A stretch of DNA of 64,000 bases, from the NCBI GenBank assembly GCA_019359715.1, contig JAHHGS010000033.1, positions 1-64,000 on the forward strand, in the 5' to 3' direction. The first letter of the stretch is position 1. Each line of letters starts with the position of its first letter. This DNA is from Aphanocapsa sp. GSE-SYN-MK-11-07L (GTDB lineage Bacteria; Cyanobacteriota; Cyanobacteriia; Thermosynechococcales; Thermosynechococcaceae). Position numbers and translations under genes: made by a program. Of this stretch, positions 2,365 through 11,789 are shown one piece after another. Under the pieces are notes generated by a model. It did not search any database. It saw nothing but the letters and a program-made list of their open reading frames with translations, and had not been told where the DNA came from.

Positions 2365-4977
2365 CTAGGCAATTTGGAAGTCAGTGGCTTGCAGAGAGGG
2401 TGTATCAACGGTGGCAAACTGGGAACCTGTGCCCAAGCCAGCTTGGCTACTATTCTGGTTATAGAACAAGCTGCCGCTGCCTCGATTGAACACAATTTGG
2501 GCAGAGCTGGTTGCTGCTTGCAAGTCGTTCTCGACGATCGCAAACTCTCCAGCCGTGCTAAACCCCTGACCGACGGCACTGGTCAAAGACGAGAATATCG
2601 CTTTGTTCAGCACAATCTTGTCGAGTCCACTGGCAAAGCCAACAATCTTGTCGAGACCGCCGCCAGCAATCAGCAGATCATTGCCGCCACCGCCAATTAA
2701 GAGGTCATCACCACTGCCGCCAGTCAAGGTATCGTTGCCATCGCCGCCGCGCAGCGTGTTACCGCTATCGGCGCTAGGTGCAGTCGGAGCTGCCAGACCA
2801 ATCAGGTTGAATCCGCCCTTGCCGATTTCGCCCAAAGACGTGGCTGCTCCGGTGGAGAGGTCAATGCTGTACAGAGTGGAGCCAGAGGTAGCATAGGCAA
2901 AATTTACGCCATTGATTGGAGAGAAGATATCAAAGCCACTGCTGGCTCCAAAGTTAACGCCCAAGGCACCAATGGTGGTCAATTTGCCGTCATTGGGCGG
3001 ATTTTGCAGCACCAGAACATCCAAATTGGCATCAATTCCAAACAGTTGAGTTGTGCGCGTGGGTGGGATGACTCCGGTGGGAGAAGGCGGGCCAAAGAAG
3101 GCGTTAGTGTAAGCAACAGCAGTGATATTGGGGTCTTGACCGAAATTGCGATCGCCCATTGAGTACGACACATTTTTGTCTGGCTCAATGGCAGGCGTCG
3201 TTAGGTCAAAATCGCCGATCGCGCCAGTATCCACGTTTACCCGCAGGTTTTGATCGTTGCTGCCGACTAGGCGCAGGCGATCGGGTACGGGGTTAAAGTC
3301 TACGCCAGACTGCTGCCCAGCATTAAAGTTAATCGGAGAAAGGGCGCTGACCAAGCTGGCGACGCCAGTGCTGGCATTAATCGTGTAGATTTTATTGGTA
3401 TCGGTGATACCGTAGAGCAGCCCATTGGCCGGGCGGAAATCAATCCCCAGTAGGTTGCCGTCAACGCCTGTTACCTGGATTGTCTGCGCCTGGTCGATTT
3501 GATCAGGGTCAAACGCAATCAGGGCATTTCGATCCGTCAGACCAAACAGCGTCGTGCTGCTACCACCCAGCAGCAAGTCATTGCCATCGCCGCCGTTCAG
3601 CTTGTCGCTGCCCAGACCACCAATCAAGAGGTCGTTGCCGCTGCCACCCCATAGGAAGTCATTGCTGCTACCTCCATCTAGGCTGTCGTTGCCGCTGCTG
3701 CCGCTCAGGGAGTCGATGTCAGCGCCGCCCCGCAGGCTGTCATGAAGATTCCCACCGTCGAGATTGTCATTGCCCAGACCACCGATCATCCGGTCATTGC
3801 CATTGCCGCCGCGCAGGAAGTCATTGCCGTTGCCCCCGTTCAGGACATCTTGGCCGTCGTCGCCCTTGAGGGTATCTTGGCCATCATTGCCCCGCAGAGT
3901 GTCATTGCCATTGCCGCCCGACAGCAAGTCGTCGCCTAGTCCACCCACAAGCAAGTCGTTGCCATTGCCACCCTGGAGGATGTCATTGCCTTCCGCTCCC
4001 GACACAGTGGTGGCGGCCAAACCCAGCAGTTTAAATTCGCCATTGCCAATCTGCCCCAAAGACTTGGCTGCTCCGGTCGAGACGTCAATGCTATACAGGG
4101 TGGAACCAGAGGCAGCGTAGGCAAAATTTACCCCATTTACTGGGGAAAAAATGTCAAAGCCGCCCTTGGTGCCAAAGTCAACACCCAACGAGCCGATCGT
4201 CGTCAATTTGCCATCATTCGGCGGATTTTGCAGGACTAGGGTATCTAGTTTAGAGTCAATCCCAAACAGTTGAGTTGTGCGGCTGGTGGAGGGAGCGCCA
4301 GCAAAAGCGTTAGTGTAGGCAACAGCGGTAACATTCGGGTCTTGACCAAAATTGCGATCGCCCATTGGGTACGACACATTTTTGTCTGGTTCAAAGGCAG
4401 GTGTGGTGAGGTCAAAGTCGGCGATCGCTCCCGTATCGACATTCACCCGCAGGTTTTGATCGTTGCTGCCGACTAGTCGCAGGCGATCGGGCACCGGGTT
4501 AAAGTCTACGCCAGACTGCTGTCCGGCGTTGAAGCCAATCGGTGAAAGCGGGCTGACTAGAGTGGCAATTCCGGTTTTAATATCAATCGTGTAAATCTTG
4601 TTGGTATCAGTGATGCCGTAGAGCAATCCGTTGGCAGGGCGAAAATCAATCCCGATCAAGTTGCCATCTACGCCCGTGACTTGGATCTTTGTTGTCTGTT
4701 TAGGGTGGCTGGGGTCAAAGGCAACCAGCCGATTTTGATCTGCTAGCCCCAGCAATTGACTGTCACCGTTAGCCAGCAGAATGTCATCACCATCGTCACC
4801 CTTCAGAACATCGCTACCCAGTCCACCCGACAGCGTGTCGTTACCGCTACCTCCACTGAGTAAATCGCGATCGCTGTTTCCATTTAGAACATCATTTCCG
4901 CCCAGCCCAAAAATCAAGTCTCTGCTGGAAGTGCCCCGCAGTGTCTCTGCTTGGGAGGAACCAAAGATCGTCGCCAT
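2365..4977 (-). CDS. RTX-repeat protein with two DUF4394 domains
   Basis: This 870-residue protein is probably exported by a type I secretion system. Nonapeptide RTX repeats (GGxGxDxLx), which bind calcium in this family, occur near residues 10-65, about 335-475 and about 745-790. Between them lie two DUF4394-type domains with repeated NGLLYGITDTNKIYTI and RLRLVGSNDQNLRV motifs. The C-terminus lacks RTX repeats and resembles RTX secretion-signal regions. There is no Sec signal. I place the start at 4977 because AGGAG stands at good spacing before that ATG; an in-frame ATG 60 bp upstream lacks this. No secretion genes are adjacent. Its biological role is unknown; adhesion or S-layer-like functions are guesses. 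Confidence 0.85.
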   Translation of the reverse strand: MATIFGSSQAETLRGTSSRDLIFGLGGNDVLNGNSDRDLLSGGSGNDTLSGGLGSDVLKGDDGDDILLANGDSQLLGLADQNRLVAFDPSHPKQTTKIQVTGVDGNLIGIDFRPANGLLYGITDTNKIYTIDIKTGIATLVSPLSPIGFNAGQQSGVDFNPVPDRLRLVGSNDQNLRVNVDTGAIADFDLTTPAFEPDKNVSYPMGDRNFGQDPNVTAVAYTNAFAGAPSTSRTTQLFGIDSKLDTLVLQNPPNDGKLTTIGSLGVDFGTKGGFDIFSPVNGVNFAYAASGSTLYSIDVSTGAAKSLGQIGNGEFKLLGLAATTVSGAEGNDILQGGNGNDLLVGGLGDDLLSGGNGNDTLRGNDGQDTLKGDDGQDVLNGGNGNDFLRGGNGNDRMIGGLGNDNLDGGNLHDSLRGGADIDSLSGSSGNDSLDGGSSNDFLWGGSGNDLLIGGLGSDKLNGGDGNDLLLGGSSTTLFGLTDRNALIAFDPDQIDQAQTIQVTGVDGNLLGIDFRPANGLLYGITDTNKIYTINASTGVASLVSALSPINFNAGQQSGVDFNPVPDRLRLVGSNDQNLRVNVDTGAIGDFDLTTPAIEPDKNVSYSMGDRNFGQDPNITAVAYTNAFFGPPSPTGVIPPTRTTQLFGIDANLDVLVLQNPPNDGKLTTIGALGVNFGASSGFDIFSPINGVNFAYATSGSTLYSIDLSTGAATSLGEIGKGGFNLIGLAAPTAPSADSGNTLRGGDGNDTLTGGSGDDLLIGGGGNDLLIAGGGLDKIVGFASGLDKIVLNKAIFSSLTSAVGQGFSTAGEFAIVENDLQAATSSAQIVFNRGSGSLFYNQNSSQAGLGTGSQFATVDTPSLQATDFQIA
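2790..3550 (-). repeat. Internal duplication, DUF4394 copy 2
   Basis: This segment encodes the second DUF4394 domain of the RTX protein. At both DNA and protein level it closely matches 4010-4755, with long stretches identical, for example around NAGQQSGVDFNPVPDRLRLV. It differs by a short Pro-rich insertion near GVIPPT. Approximate limits were judged by eye. Confidence 0.75.
4010..4755 (-). repeat. Internal duplication, DUF4394 copy 1
   Basis: This is the N-terminal partner of the repeat at 2790-3550, in the same orientation and about 1.2 kb away. An RTX block lies between the copies. The arrangement indicates duplication within the gene of a unit made of RTX repeats plus DUF4394. Confidence 0.75.
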
Positions 4978-5352
4978 AGCTGTAACTCCTAAAAATTTAA
5001 TTTGTCTTCCGGTTGATTTCAGCCCGATCGGCATCACCCTCTGCTTAAACCCAGCGGGTGACAGGCGGATTGTCCGCCCAGCTTTTAATGCCTTAGGGGT
5101 TTTAAGAACCCGCTAAGAATTGCGAATTTTGTCAGCAAACCTGGAGCAGACCAGCATCCGGTTGCCTGCTGTCATAACTAGCAGTCAACTTGTTTGAAGT
5201 TGAATTGTTGTTCCAGTTCTATAGGTACTACCCGCTAGAGCGCCGAATGGATGCAGCAGCACTAAAAAAAGTTTGATTTGGGCTGATATTAATCCGGTTT
5301 ATTTTGTAAAACCCTTAGTTTGTAAGGGTTTTACAAAATAAACGATTCCCAT
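4978..5352. other. Intergenic region upstream of the RTX gene
   Basis: This 375-bp gap holds the RTX ribosome-binding site (AGGAG just above 4977), a short GGCGGA-ttg-TCCGCC hairpin near 5074-5088 and the strong terminator at 5298-5342. No credible ORF is present on either strand. I could not identify a promoter with confidence. Confidence 0.5.
5298..5342. terminator. Strong palindromic terminator
   Basis: A perfect 20-bp stem (5298-5317 against 5323-5342) encloses a 5-base loop. Its A/T-rich outer arms give a U-run in either direction. It begins 11 bp past the stop of the minus-strand transporter gene and insulates it from the RTX gene. Confidence 0.85.
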
Positions 5353-6243
5353 TCAAGTCACCATCCGCACCCCAAAAGCCATCACAACTGACAGGAATAA
5401 CTTGAAAGGAAAATGATTCCAGGCATCTTGATCGCCAAACGGGCTAAAGATAGTCAGTAGCAAGATTGACAGGGCAAACGTATAAGCCGGCACTGTCGCT
5501 TCAACGGCTGCCACTAAAGAGGGGACGCCTAAGTCAATCGCACGTTGGCTCATAAACAGGGCAATTAAGTTTGCAATCTCAATCCCAAACAGCATGGGGA
5601 TTGCTGGCTGTAATAGTGCCATATTCTTCCGAAAAGTTTGTCGCACCTTTGCCAACAACAAAGGCAAAATACCACTGACAATAATCCCAACGGTAATCAA
5701 CAAAAATCCAATAAAAAATGTACAGTGCTTAAAGACTTGATCTTCTAGCAATAGCGCATTGACTTGAAAGCAAGAAGCAATCAACATTAGCCAAAAGGCT
5801 TGCCAATTTGTTTGAATATTGGTGCCAACCAAGCAGAAGCAAACCGAAGTGATCACAAGCACAGAAATTCCAAGATATTGCTGTGTTAACAACAACTTAC
5901 CAAAAAAAATAAAGCTAGCAACCGGAACCATAGCTGGAGTCAAGTTCCAGTAGGCAGCAACCACTCCTGCTTCGCTGTTGTTTAAAGCCTGAAAATAAAA
6001 GATTTGACTGCTCTGAATCAGAATCCCTGCTAAGAGGGCCAGCAAAATAGTCTTTGTTTCAGGCCAAGTCCAATCCACAAATGGGAAGACAAAAGGCACG
6101 ATCGCAATCACGATCGTTGAGGCGATCGAACTTGTAATTACTCCCATCCAGGGGCGATCAAAGACCCGCTCAACGCAGTGAGAGTCAAGGACATGGACGA
6201 TCGCCCAAAACACTGGACTTAGGAGGGCGAAAACCAGCCACAT
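5353..6243 (-). CDS. DMT/EamA-type membrane transporter
   Basis: The 296-residue protein has about ten hydrophobic segments arranged as two similar halves, as in the drug/metabolite transporter superfamily (EamA). It begins with a membrane segment carrying the W.I.HV.D motif seen in this group, and has a small-residue-rich segment near residues 90-105 (NNSEAGVVAAYWNLTP). The substrate cannot be told from sequence. The gene starts 3 bp after the stop of the upstream GGDEF/EAL gene, so the two are almost certainly co-transcribed, and a strong terminator follows. An export or uptake function connected with cyclic-di-GMP is only suggested by this pairing. Confidence 0.75.
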   Translation of the reverse strand: MWLVFALLSPVFWAIVHVLDSHCVERVFDRPWMGVITSSIASTIVIAIVPFVFPFVDWTWPETKTILLALLAGILIQSSQIFYFQALNNSEAGVVAAYWNLTPAMVPVASFIFFGKLLLTQQYLGISVLVITSVCFCLVGTNIQTNWQAFWLMLIASCFQVNALLLEDQVFKHCTFFIGFLLITVGIIVSGILPLLLAKVRQTFRKNMALLQPAIPMLFGIEIANLIALFMSQRAIDLGVPSLVAAVEATVPAYTFALSILLLTIFSPFGDQDAWNHFPFKLFLSVVMAFGVRMVT

Positions 6244-8966: not shown

Positions 8967-10604
8967 TCAACTAGAGAGCGGTGGCTGCATCTGTTGCAGT
9001 TTGGCATCTAGGCGTTGCTCAGAGGCTAAGCGTTCCAAAGCATAGTCATTCAGGTCAACAAAGTGCATCTTGGCAACTAGGGCTGGATGAACCGTCTGGA
9101 TTTGCTGATACATGGCTTGGGCGATCGCCCGATAGCCGGAATGCCCCTGCCGGGAACTGCGTAATTCAATAAAGTGATAGGCTTCGCGCAGGTTCAGCTT
9201 CATTCGCCAGCGGACTCGATAGGCAAACGGCACCACATACTGGGCCGCTTCTGGCAAGTCTTGACCAATTAACTCAGCCGTTTCGGCCGCCCGATCTAAG
9301 GCTTGGCAATAAGGGGCGGCTAAATTGGCAGCAACCAGTTCTGGCGGCACCGCGTAGCCATGCTGCACCGTGTATCGCTGCCGCTCTTGGCTCAAGACGC
9401 GATGCCGATGCAAATCACGATAGGCGCCCAAATCTGCCAGGAGATCAAAGCTGTAGTAGGTTTCTTCAAAGGCTCGCCCCGGCCGATGAAATCGCACCGC
9501 CCGATCGCCAATATAGGTGTTGATGATTTCCAGTTTTGCCGCCGCTGATAGCTCAGCCGCGTAGGCGTTCAGTTGGTCAAATCCCAAATTGGTTTGGGGA
9601 TAGAGAATGGCGGCGACAATTTTAGTTTCGGCATTGGGGTCATATTCGACTAGCTGAACCATTGCTGAAGCATCAGTCTTCAGGTCAGCCGTCAGCTTTT
9701 GGGTCAGGGCAGCCGTGCGATCGCCATTGTCAGCCAAGTAGCGAACATAGGCTTGTCCCCGCTCTGTTTTGGCCCGCTTCACAAACGAGGGAATCATTTG
9801 GTCTAGCTCCTGCTGCATGGCCAAGCCCAACTCCTGCACCTCTGGGTGGGGCGAAGCCGCCAGTTTGACCAATAGATACTCAAAAGCCCGCCCATTCCCG
9901 AATAAACCGACATTGGTCAGGGTGGCCATCGGCAGTAAGCCCCGCAGCAGGTCGAGGGCTTTGGCTCTGGTGGCGCTGGCATAAGCTCGTTCTGAAGTAG
10001 ATTCTTCTTTTGGGGTACAAGCCTGCACCCAACTGATCAGCGGGTCAATCAGGGCCGTATAAGTATCAAATAAATGATCAAGGCTAGCTTCGTAGCGTGC
10101 GGCATGGCTTGAGACCATAATTGCCGGCTCGCGATAGTACAAATAGCGCCCATTTACCTTTTTGTTAAAGGGCACGTAACGAGTCGATTTTTCGAGTGGA
10201 GAAATGCCCAAGCGGCTGTCTTCTAGGGCTTTAGCAGCAATATTGCTCACGCCTTCGCAGGCCAAGTGCGCTCCGCCTAATTCGGCCACGGAGTCATCGC
10301 CGTAGCCAATCAAAACGCGATCGTAGAAGGCTTCTGCTTTCTGAATGGCCACCAGTTGGTCAGCTTGATTACCGCTTGCTGACCCAACAATCCCGGCAAA
10401 GTCAGCTTCTGGGGCTTTGATAAATTCGTCCAACAGAATCCGGCGTAAGCCTTTTTCACTGCGGCTATAGCGAGAAAACAATGCCCCTTTCACCACTTCC
10501 GGCAAGTTGCGAAACCCAAACACGGGGCGATCTAAGTTAGTTACAAAGGGCTGGAGCAAACGGCTCTCTTGCTCGGTTAGGGATTCCTGGAAAAAATCAC
10601 TCAT
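8967..10604 (-). CDS. Double-length FAD-dependent thymidylate synthase-like protein
   Basis: At 545 residues this is about twice the size of ordinary ThyX, which methylates dUMP to dTMP using FAD and methylenetetrahydrofolate. Two ThyX-like halves can be seen. The C-terminal half has RHR at 400-402 followed by LSQERQRYT, comparable with the ThyX motif RHRX7S, and later a F.ELR...Q segment. The N-terminal half has the equivalent segment SRLGISPLEKSTRYV near 129-143, but without RHR. The gene lies 24 bp downstream of dUTPase, which makes dUMP, so a role in thymidylate supply is well supported. Whether the enzyme is active or an RNA/nucleotide-related paralogue cannot be decided here; a separate standard ThyX may exist elsewhere. 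Confidence 0.75.
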   Translation of the reverse strand: MSDFFQESLTEQESRLLQPFVTNLDRPVFGFRNLPEVVKGALFSRYSRSEKGLRRILLDEFIKAPEADFAGIVGSASGNQADQLVAIQKAEAFYDRVLIGYGDDSVAELGGAHLACEGVSNIAAKALEDSRLGISPLEKSTRYVPFNKKVNGRYLYYREPAIMVSSHAARYEASLDHLFDTYTALIDPLISWVQACTPKEESTSERAYASATRAKALDLLRGLLPMATLTNVGLFGNGRAFEYLLVKLAASPHPEVQELGLAMQQELDQMIPSFVKRAKTERGQAYVRYLADNGDRTAALTQKLTADLKTDASAMVQLVEYDPNAETKIVAAILYPQTNLGFDQLNAYAAELSAAAKLEIINTYIGDRAVRFHRPGRAFEETYYSFDLLADLGAYRDLHRHRVLSQERQRYTVQHGYAVPPELVAANLAAPYCQALDRAAETAELIGQDLPEAAQYVVPFAYRVRWRMKLNLREAYHFIELRSSRQGHSGYRAIAQAMYQQIQTVHPALVAKMHFVDLNDYALERLASEQRLDAKLQQMQPPLSS

Positions 10605-10628
10605 GCTTTGCTGGAAGGGTTAATAAAT

Positions 10629-11111
10629 TTAATCAGAAGGCAATCCTTTATCGGCGGCATCCACATAGGTAATCCCAGTCGAACCAAAGCCGCCACTGCC
10701 CCTGGATGACTCTGCCAAATCGTCCACCTCCTGAAACCGACCGAGCATGACCGGAGCAACGACGAGCTGAGCAATTTTTTGACCCTTGCGAATTGAGAAA
10801 GGCTCAGACCCTAAGTTGAGTAAGAGCACCTTAATTTCGCCGCGATAGCCCGCATCAACCGTACCCGGAGTATTCAAAACCGTCAATCCATACCTGAGCG
10901 CTAAACCGCTGCGGGGGCGCACCTGCAATTCAAACCCGGCTGGCACTTCAGCAGCTAAACCTGTCGGGACAGCAAACCATTGCATCGGCGGCAAAGTGTA
11001 ATCCACCACAGACACCAAATCGGCACCGGAGTCACCCGGATGCTCGTATCTGGGTAGAGTTGCCTCCGGCAGCAGGCGTTTTATTTTGACCAGAATTTGG
11101 CGATCGGTCAT
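10629..11111 (-). CDS. dut: dUTP diphosphatase (dUTPase)
   Basis: This trimeric dUTPase hydrolyses dUTP to dUMP and diphosphate, keeping uracil out of DNA and supplying thymidylate synthesis. All five family motifs are present in order: PGDSGADL, the PRSGLA loop, GTVDAGYRGEI with the catalytic Asp and Tyr, GQKIAQLV and the C-terminal P-loop-like RGSGGFGSTG. The length is about 160 residues, normal for the family. I prefer the ATG at 11111 (MTDRQ), but an in-frame ATG at 11138 adds nine residues and neither has a clear ribosome-binding site. It is the first gene of a probable operon with the ThyX-like gene. Confidence 0.93.
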   Translation of the reverse strand: MTDRQILVKIKRLLPEATLPRYEHPGDSGADLVSVVDYTLPPMQWFAVPTGLAAEVPAGFELQVRPRSGLALRYGLTVLNTPGTVDAGYRGEIKVLLLNLGSEPFSIRKGQKIAQLVVAPVMLGRFQEVDDLAESSRGSGGFGSTGITYVDAADKGLPSD

Positions 11112-11789
11112 GTCTCTAATCTTCAAATGAACTACCATCTAGCCGCTACGCTGAGCTAGAGGTCTCTGACGCTTCGCTTGAGCCACTTACCTTTTCGCAT
11201 CCGGAGGCACGATTGATAGAGGTTTCTCATCCACGTCTGACGACGCTAGTTCCTAACGCCATTTGCCAGAGGATCTGGCAAATTGAGCAAAGTATTATTA
11301 ACTTGGCTCAGAATCTCTACATGGGCTACAGCTAGGTGCAGCGCAACACGTTCCTTACGAAGTCTGATCTCCGGATACTGGACGTTACTGTGCGTATCGA
11401 TTCGGGTTAGACAAGAGCTTTTGTCCCAAGTGGGAAGGAGGTTGTCGTCCTCACGTCCGAAGTGGCTCTGTTATTGGAATGGCTCACTATTGTCATTCTA
11501 CCGGAATGTTGGCGCTTCCTCAACCACCCCAATCTCTCGCATTGCTTGGCCCCTAAGCCGAGCCGAAGGGCGCTATCCTTCCCTACCCCGCTTCGCTGAG
11601 GGTAGGGACTGTCGCGAGAACGTTCAAAAATTCAAATCTTCAAAGTTTAAGCTGTCGGAGGCAGATTTTTCTTTTTGCAATAAATCAGCCCTGTCCTTAT
11701 TAAGGGGAGCCACTGCGTATTCCTAGCGGAACGCTCCGCGAGGCGACGGGTTCCCCGGCTTAAAGCAAGTGGCGTCGATTTAGGGGGAT
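11112..11789. other. Gene-free, hairpin-rich region
   Basis: No convincing gene is visible in about 680 bp. The region holds several inverted repeats: ATTTGCCAG/CTGGCAAAT at 11261-11283, TCCCTACCC/GGGTAGGGA at 11580-11608 and GCGGA/TCCGC near 11728-11742, plus short GC-rich phrases such as CGCTTCGCTGAGGG and CTCCGCGAGGCGAC. These look like the short interspersed hairpin repeats common in cyanobacterial intergenic DNA, or the non-coding end of a decayed IS200/IS605-type element. I cannot choose between these. Confidence 0.45.

Follow-up and report, generated by a model that had tools for sequence, protein, structure and literature searches.

The window analyzed here, 64,000 nucleotides of Aphanocapsa sp. 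GSE-SYN-MK-11-07L (contig JAHHGS010000033.1), carries an open reading frame (ORF) of 545 amino acids at positions 8967..10604 on the (−) strand, as are all genes and residues of the window located below, with an ATG start and no internal stops. Its product is a double-length ThyX, a flavin adenine dinucleotide (FAD)-dependent thymidylate synthase, as judged from the ORF, Pfam, a profile search of the genome and fold models. We propose, with a probability of about 0.78, that this protein is a duplicated and fused ThyX whose composite active site is split between its two halves and that it most likely serves as the sole thymidylate synthase of the cell, catalyzing the ordinary reaction. The N half (residues 1–308; 9681..10604) appears to keep the side of the site that holds deoxyuridine monophosphate (dUMP) and carries the lid, and the C half (residues 309–545 plus the stop codon; 8967..9680) appears to keep the FAD side with its RHR motif.

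A first-pass annotation, made from the sequence alone, had read the protein as two ThyX units, a reading that halves lying off the ThyX fold, or a clear match to an unrelated family, would have overturned. Both profiles and fold models agree with two units. Pfam Thy1 matched the whole protein with 158.8 bits (cut-off 24.8) in two stretches, the better of them at residues 317–508, and a Thy1 profile search of the organism's own genome returned the C half (E = 2.6e-27) and the N half (E = 2.1e-16) as its only matches. When the halves of the whole family were aligned with a single-ThyX profile (hhalign), N halves matched with E = 1.5e-13 and C halves with E = 2.4e-15 (core sequences, 5.1e-9 and 8.8e-11, respectively). 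Compared directly, N and C halves barely recognize each other (E = 1.1e-4, probability 57%; E = 0.037 with 83 core sequences), and for this reason the duplication is, by sequence, an old one, established through the common match to ThyX and by fold. The AlphaFold2 model of the whole protein, built on 62 of the available sequences, has a mean predicted local distance difference test score (pLDDT) of 92.1 and a predicted template modeling score (pTM) of 0.90, and the N half modeled alone reaches 92.0 and 0.89. Residues 313–520 of the full model, from the C half, superpose on the solved ThyX 5ios_D with Z 16.2 and a root mean square deviation (rmsd) of 2.5 over 190 aligned residues (best unrelated Z 4.6), and the N-half model superposes on ThyX 3gwc_C with Z 13.9 and rmsd 4.3 over 200 aligned residues (best unrelated Z 4.0).

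Residue equivalences were derived by aligning each half, as a profile, with single ThyX proteins and are given in Thermotoga maritima numbering. We counted conservation over 122 double-length proteins (461–589 amino acids, plus one fragment of 420), comprising the window protein, 76 from a scan of a genome collection, three from a scan of viral contigs and 42 found otherwise. In the C half, the RHR motif lies at R400-H401-R402 (9399..9407), with R400 and H401 in all 122 proteins and R402 in 119; an alignment-free search likewise found RH[RN] in 122 of 122 C halves. R482 (9159..9161), the equivalent of the catalytic R174, is also invariant (122/122). The loop that follows the motif, S405-Q-E-R-Q-R-Y411 (9372..9392), is shortened by a two-residue gap relative to single ThyX and lacks S88; by column counts, the places of R90 and Y91 hold R410 in 16 and Y411 in 10 of the 122, the window protein included. 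Three proteins (L084, L086 and L102) do have S.R[YF] in the C half, but two residues later than in single ThyX. At the place of R147 the C half has Q455 (9240..9242; Q in 102 of 122, R in none).

The N half presents the opposite picture. Aligned to single ThyX, it reads D129-S130-R131-LGISPLEKSTRY at the place of the RHR motif (residues 129–131 at 10212..10220), so that R78 and H79 are lost to D129 and S130 and R80 is kept as R131; RH[RN] occurs in none of the 122 N halves in the alignment-free search. The partner set in this alignment was 31 single ThyX proteins chosen by their RHR...SxR motif, whose count among them is therefore by construction (L131, a single ThyX with THR, was dropped there). 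Downstream, E138-K-S140-T-R142-Y143 (10176..10193) aligns with E86, S88, R90 and Y91, with S140, R142 and Y143 each kept in 122 of 122 and E138 in 120. R221 (9942..9944) is the equivalent of R147 (R in 117, K in 5). The place of R174 falls at K247-L248 (9861..9866), where the register is uncertain by one residue: it is either L248, with R in none of the 122, or the preceding K247. S140, R142, Y143, R400, H401 and R482 occur together in 75 of 75 representatives at <70% identity. The first-pass annotation had correctly confined RHR to the C half and seen a different sequence in the N half, but its description of one altered half has to be amended: the C half is altered too, having neither the S-x-R-Y dUMP and lid motif at its place nor the R147 equivalent, and the two sets of losses are complementary. 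With RHR in the C half and S-x-R-Y in the N half, RHRX7S within one unit is found in neither, and on this sequence criterion the protein is a ThyX of the double-length branch and not a classical one.

In published ThyX structures the active site is shared between subunits. In the Mycobacterium tuberculosis enzyme, subunit A contributes Arg95 and Arg199, and subunit C Arg87, Ser105 and Arg107, to the binding of one dUMP; Tyr108 of subunit C forms a lid over it, and the FAD of A is bound by the RHR of A plus Ser71 and Arg190 of B (PMC6514825). The accessible parts of other papers describe equivalents of R174 and of S88 or R90/Y91 on different monomers, with A:Arg197 versus C:Arg109 and C:Tyr110 (PMC4632503) and Ser-88 on monomer B versus Arg-182 on monomer A (PMC3498832), and R78 pointing to the flavin with H53 supplied by a third monomer (PMC11940539). 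By motif position, Arg95 and Arg199 correspond to R78 and R174, and Ser105, Arg107 and Tyr108 to S88, R90 and Y91; the subunit-A set is thus the one kept by the C half, and the N half retains the Ser105, Arg107 and Tyr108 equivalents of the subunit-C set without that of Arg87. The UniProt rule for ThyX reportedly draws residues 86–90 and R147 from one partner and 75–78 and R174 from the other.

Ordinary ThyX has four identical active sites, each assembled at subunit borders, with one subunit giving RHR (for FAD, the first Arg also contacting dUMP) and R174 (for uracil activation), a second giving S88, R90 and the lid Y91 (and, by the UniProt rule, R147), and a third giving further FAD and folate contacts. 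Since these sets come from different subunits in solved ThyX and are lost in complementary fashion here, we infer one live and one dead site per pair of N and C halves. The live site would be formed by one C half and one N half; the mirror site, made up of an N-half helix and a C-half loop, would possess neither set and is expected to be dead. Two chains would then assemble as an (N–C)2 pseudo-tetramer in which two sites, not four, are live. Of the two suggestions made in the first-pass annotation, a pseudo-oligomer or a new activity, the fused pseudo-oligomer is thus consistent with the residues. A new activity finds no support, because the genome has no match to another thymidylate synthase and because the double-length type includes that of Chlamydiota, with the isolated Chlamydia trachomatis enzyme being active according to the accessible text of PMC3498832.

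Profile searches of the organism's own genome (99.48% complete) gave no ThyA, other Thy1, DHFR_1 or TK match, and each of these searches was positive in several control genomes. The check for another thyX or thyA that had been suggested for this genome therefore turned up nothing besides the two halves of this gene, and the 545-residue protein is most likely the cell's only thymidylate synthase, an essential enzyme; barring a route of another kind, deoxythymidine monophosphate (dTMP) would depend on it. Among 54 double-ThyX genomes searched, part of 84 candidates (52 are distinct, as G476/G584 and G496/G586 carry the gene at identical coordinates), ThyA was found in one (G623, positions 109–230 of 266) and a second ThyX elsewhere in two (G608 and G624); a third extra match, in G596, was below the cut-off and contained stops. 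Absence is weaker evidence in these relatives because many are metagenome bins.

Several observations weigh against the split-site reading. The composite site is drawn from residues and from published structures of single ThyX rather than from a modeled oligomer. The NCBIfam thyX equivalog TIGR02170 scores the protein at 68.4 bits, under its cut-off of 87.9. Seventy-nine of the 122 proteins came from scans with N-half patterns, one of them containing STRY, which makes their N-half counts in part circular. This does not affect the C-half counts, and the 42 proteins found without N-half patterns (8 plasmid or phage proteins, 2 of the divergent f32 type described below and 32 from Chlamydiota) all keep the six key residues and R221 (42/42); the 32 Chlamydiota ORFs were themselves selected by RH[RN] and S.RY, with 32 of 32 loci yielding one and none lost. 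Both halves retain R80 (as R131 in 115 and as R402 in 119 of 122), and the K247 place beside the R174 position is basic in 114 of 122 N halves (K 84, R 30) and may partly substitute for R174. The place of Arg87, the dUMP contact of subunit C in M. tuberculosis, is occupied by R in only 5 of the 122 N halves (the window protein has N121) and in 31 of the 31 single ThyX compared; T. maritima has Ile there in one alignment. Nor do the residues of the third subunit sort cleanly: N halves retain the Ser71-type residue (S105, 119/122), and the Arg190-type residue is better kept in the C half (R473, 115/122) than in the N half (R239, 92/122; Q in 28). For the H53, Ser71 and Arg190 types, the counts conflict over which half would supply them.

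The residues of the mirror site are conserved and not drifting, both in the N half (E128 in 106 and D129 in 94 of 122) and in the C half (Q406 in 93, E407 in 92, R408 in 92, Q409 in 116 and Q455 in 102). This raises the tentative possibility, based on these counts, that the mirror site has been reused, the fusion having created next to the catalytic pocket a further one dedicated to NADPH, folate or a regulatory nucleotide, which if true would make the protein a two-function enzyme instead of a half-sites ThyX. It is unlikely that catalysis belongs to the C half by itself, with the N half serving only as a structural or regulatory partner. The C half does contain RHR and R174 and gives the better of the two Pfam matches, but S88 and the R147 equivalent are missing there at their places, R410 and Y411 are found in 16 and 10 of 122 proteins against 122 for each of the N-half S, R and Y, and the S88A, R90A and Y91A substitutions strongly slow one step of the T. 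maritima reaction, as the available portion of PMC8316439 reports.

We consider it quite improbable that the protein makes a product other than dTMP, acting on UMP (uridine monophosphate) or as another pyrimidine methylase in the manner of the ThyX-fold protein PolB; PolB (4p5b) is among the fold matches and Asp replaces H53 in most N halves (D103, 114 of 122), but a 99.48% complete genome without a ThyA, other ThyX or thymidine kinase match, and with dut adjoining the gene, speaks for dTMP. Equally small is the chance that both halves are full and independent active sites: the ThyX fold and R80 are present in both and K247 could replace R174 in the N half, but the N half has neither R78 nor H79 (RH[RN] in 0 of 122) and the C half has no S88 at its place. 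An accidental fusion, an assembly error or a decaying gene, to which the rarity of the gene among cyanobacteria (found in 5 of 291 genomes of the class) and a frameshifted copy in genome G389 might point, is scarcely credible given at least 575 confirmed relatives, 80 kept loci matching across both halves, an intact frame and the gene's standing as the genome's only ThyX. Chance or mis-assembly was likewise rejected on the Pfam match and on relatives spanning both halves.

The double form of ThyX is itself already known. The accessible text of Valas and Bourne (2009; PMC3224940) mentions a ThyX domain duplication in Chloroflexi, uncharacterized, and the duplicated ThyX of Chloroflexales and Herpetosiphon is 57–67% identical to the window protein and shares its domain duplication; the difference is that the cyanobacterial copy was probably acquired by transfer. 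In the open-licence literature, as far as its available text extends, we found no description of the complementary residue split, which is the part we propose here from sequence comparison. The Chlamydiota ThyX of genome G640 (529 amino acids) is also double-length, with the same complementary residues, and differs in lineage. The C. trachomatis enzyme is reportedly the subject of a study by Griffin in 2005; its cloning and assay are described in the accessible part of PMC3498832. With the double-length type of Chloroflexota and Chlamydiota the window protein shares two Thy1 units, complementary residues (a criterion defined in this analysis) and the role of sole thymidylate synthase, which is usual in relatives and not strictly defining. 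The single-domain enzymes (T. maritima TM0449, M. tuberculosis, Helicobacter pylori) have the same fold as each half; they are homotetramers with four equal sites and carry RHRX7S in one stretch, whereas neither half here has it and the equivalents of R78, H79, R80, E86, S88, R90, Y91, R147 and R174 are spread over two halves. If the two halves do share one site, the protein would be a clear natural example of how an active site between subunits can be partitioned over duplicated units. It would also allow the roles of residues to be probed on each side separately, something not possible in a homotetramer. Searches for RHRX7S would miss the double-length type, and the window protein falls under the NCBI thyX cut-off.

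Double-length ThyX occurs in Chlamydiota, Chloroflexota, Actinomycetota, archaea (mostly DPANN), phages and large plasmids. Our scan of the genome collection gave at least 588 pattern matches, at least 575 of them confirmed as relatives, and all 80 loci that we kept match the query across both halves; they come from Chloroflexota, Cyanobacteriota, Actinomycetota, archaea (mostly DPANN), Deltaproteobacteria/Myxococcota, Binatota, SAR324, Chlamydiota and others. Four of the 80 are left out of the 122 proteins (L101 and L126 contain a stop within the match, whereas the frame start is unclear in L117 and L121), as are L037/L038 (the frameshifted gene of G389) and L034–L036, of which L035 and L036 duplicate the entries L048 and L050. 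Some Thy1 match is present in 332 of 386 genomes of the phylum; close relatives of the gene at E ≤ 1e-10 are present in 5 of 291 genomes of the class, its own included, and one of these five is G389. In Chlamydiota, Thy1 matches 87 of 92 genomes, with two matches in 84. A close viral origin was also weighed and set aside. Viral contigs scanned with a single sequence gave no confirmed relative; scanned with an alignment, they gave three loci, one of them (L127) 59% identical to the window protein. Phage records gave five distant matches at 26–27% identity.

Among the matches listed, the closest relatives of the gene are cyanobacterial. In a quick, unrooted tree of 87 proteins, excluding the Vibrio phage and f32 ones, the window protein falls into a set of eight rows (five Cyanobacteriota and three unranked, including a viral contig) with a Shimodaira–Hasegawa-like approximate likelihood ratio test (SH-aLRT) value of 99, and this set lies inside a 19-row set with Chloroflexota (100), Herpetosiphon being nearest (90). 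The nesting of cyanobacterial copies among Chloroflexota suggests, on this tree, their transfer from that phylum. L127 (IMGVR_UViG_3300032431_000003, 3998–5569) is a double ThyX on a viral contig inside the set with the cyanobacterial copies.

In a tree of separated halves (19 of the 122 double proteins and nine single ThyX, among them L131), the 17 N halves of the main family group together in a single clade (98/93) and its 17 C halves in a second (96/78), with Bacillus/Paenibacillus plasmid and phage forms within. The f32-type proteins (G004 and G010; L133 and L132), from another class of Cyanobacteriota, have two Thy1 domains and the same complementary pattern, are very divergent and ambiguous in their placement, with an N half that falls outside the main N clade. 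That the split arose twice independently, as this type had suggested, was not upheld, since the approximately unbiased test does not reject one origin (p-AU 0.42).

Other forms were encountered along the way. L132 and L133 have a Cys-rich tail. L044, L045 and L046 are double ThyX on Bacillus/Paenibacillus plasmids (212–229 kb, typed as non-mobilizable) near helicase genes, and the plasmids may be phage-like. L139–L144 (G247, G280, G089, G193, G241 and G085) are single, divergent ThyX-like proteins of 271–337 amino acids from cyanobacteria, three of them in the window's own family, with THR...SSR in place of RHR...SxRY and weak Thy1 matches (E 8e-11 to 6e-5). Four further cyanobacteria (G019, G054, G087 and G131; L134–L137 and L147–L150) have single ThyX genes in frames of 423–709 amino acids whose Thy1 match is split near profile position 74–93 by a long in-frame insert, probably an intein at RHR.

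The placement of thyX behind dut, also noted in the first-pass annotation, stands: dut (10629..11111), encoding a deoxyuridine triphosphatase (dUTPase; Pfam dUTPase E = 1.1e-27) of 160 amino acids from the ATG at 11111, lies 24 bp upstream on the same strand. An alternative ATG further upstream, at 11138, would give 169 amino acids. The dUTPase would supply dUMP from dUTP for thyX. A scan for promoters and terminators around the two genes gave signals not above those of shuffled sequences. A dut or dcd gene adjoins thyX in five of nine cyanobacterial loci (the window, L034 with dcd-dut-thyX, G389, L047 with dcd and L049 with dut) and in the other four (L048, L050, L051 and L079) neither does; dut also adjoins thyX in viral contig L128. 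Across the window, GCGATCGC, which we take to be the cyanobacterial HIP1 repeat, occurs in 66 copies, and 2365–5037 encodes an 890-amino acid protein with many GGxGND-like stretches and a longer unit in two copies that, by eye, resembles a calcium-binding repeat protein.
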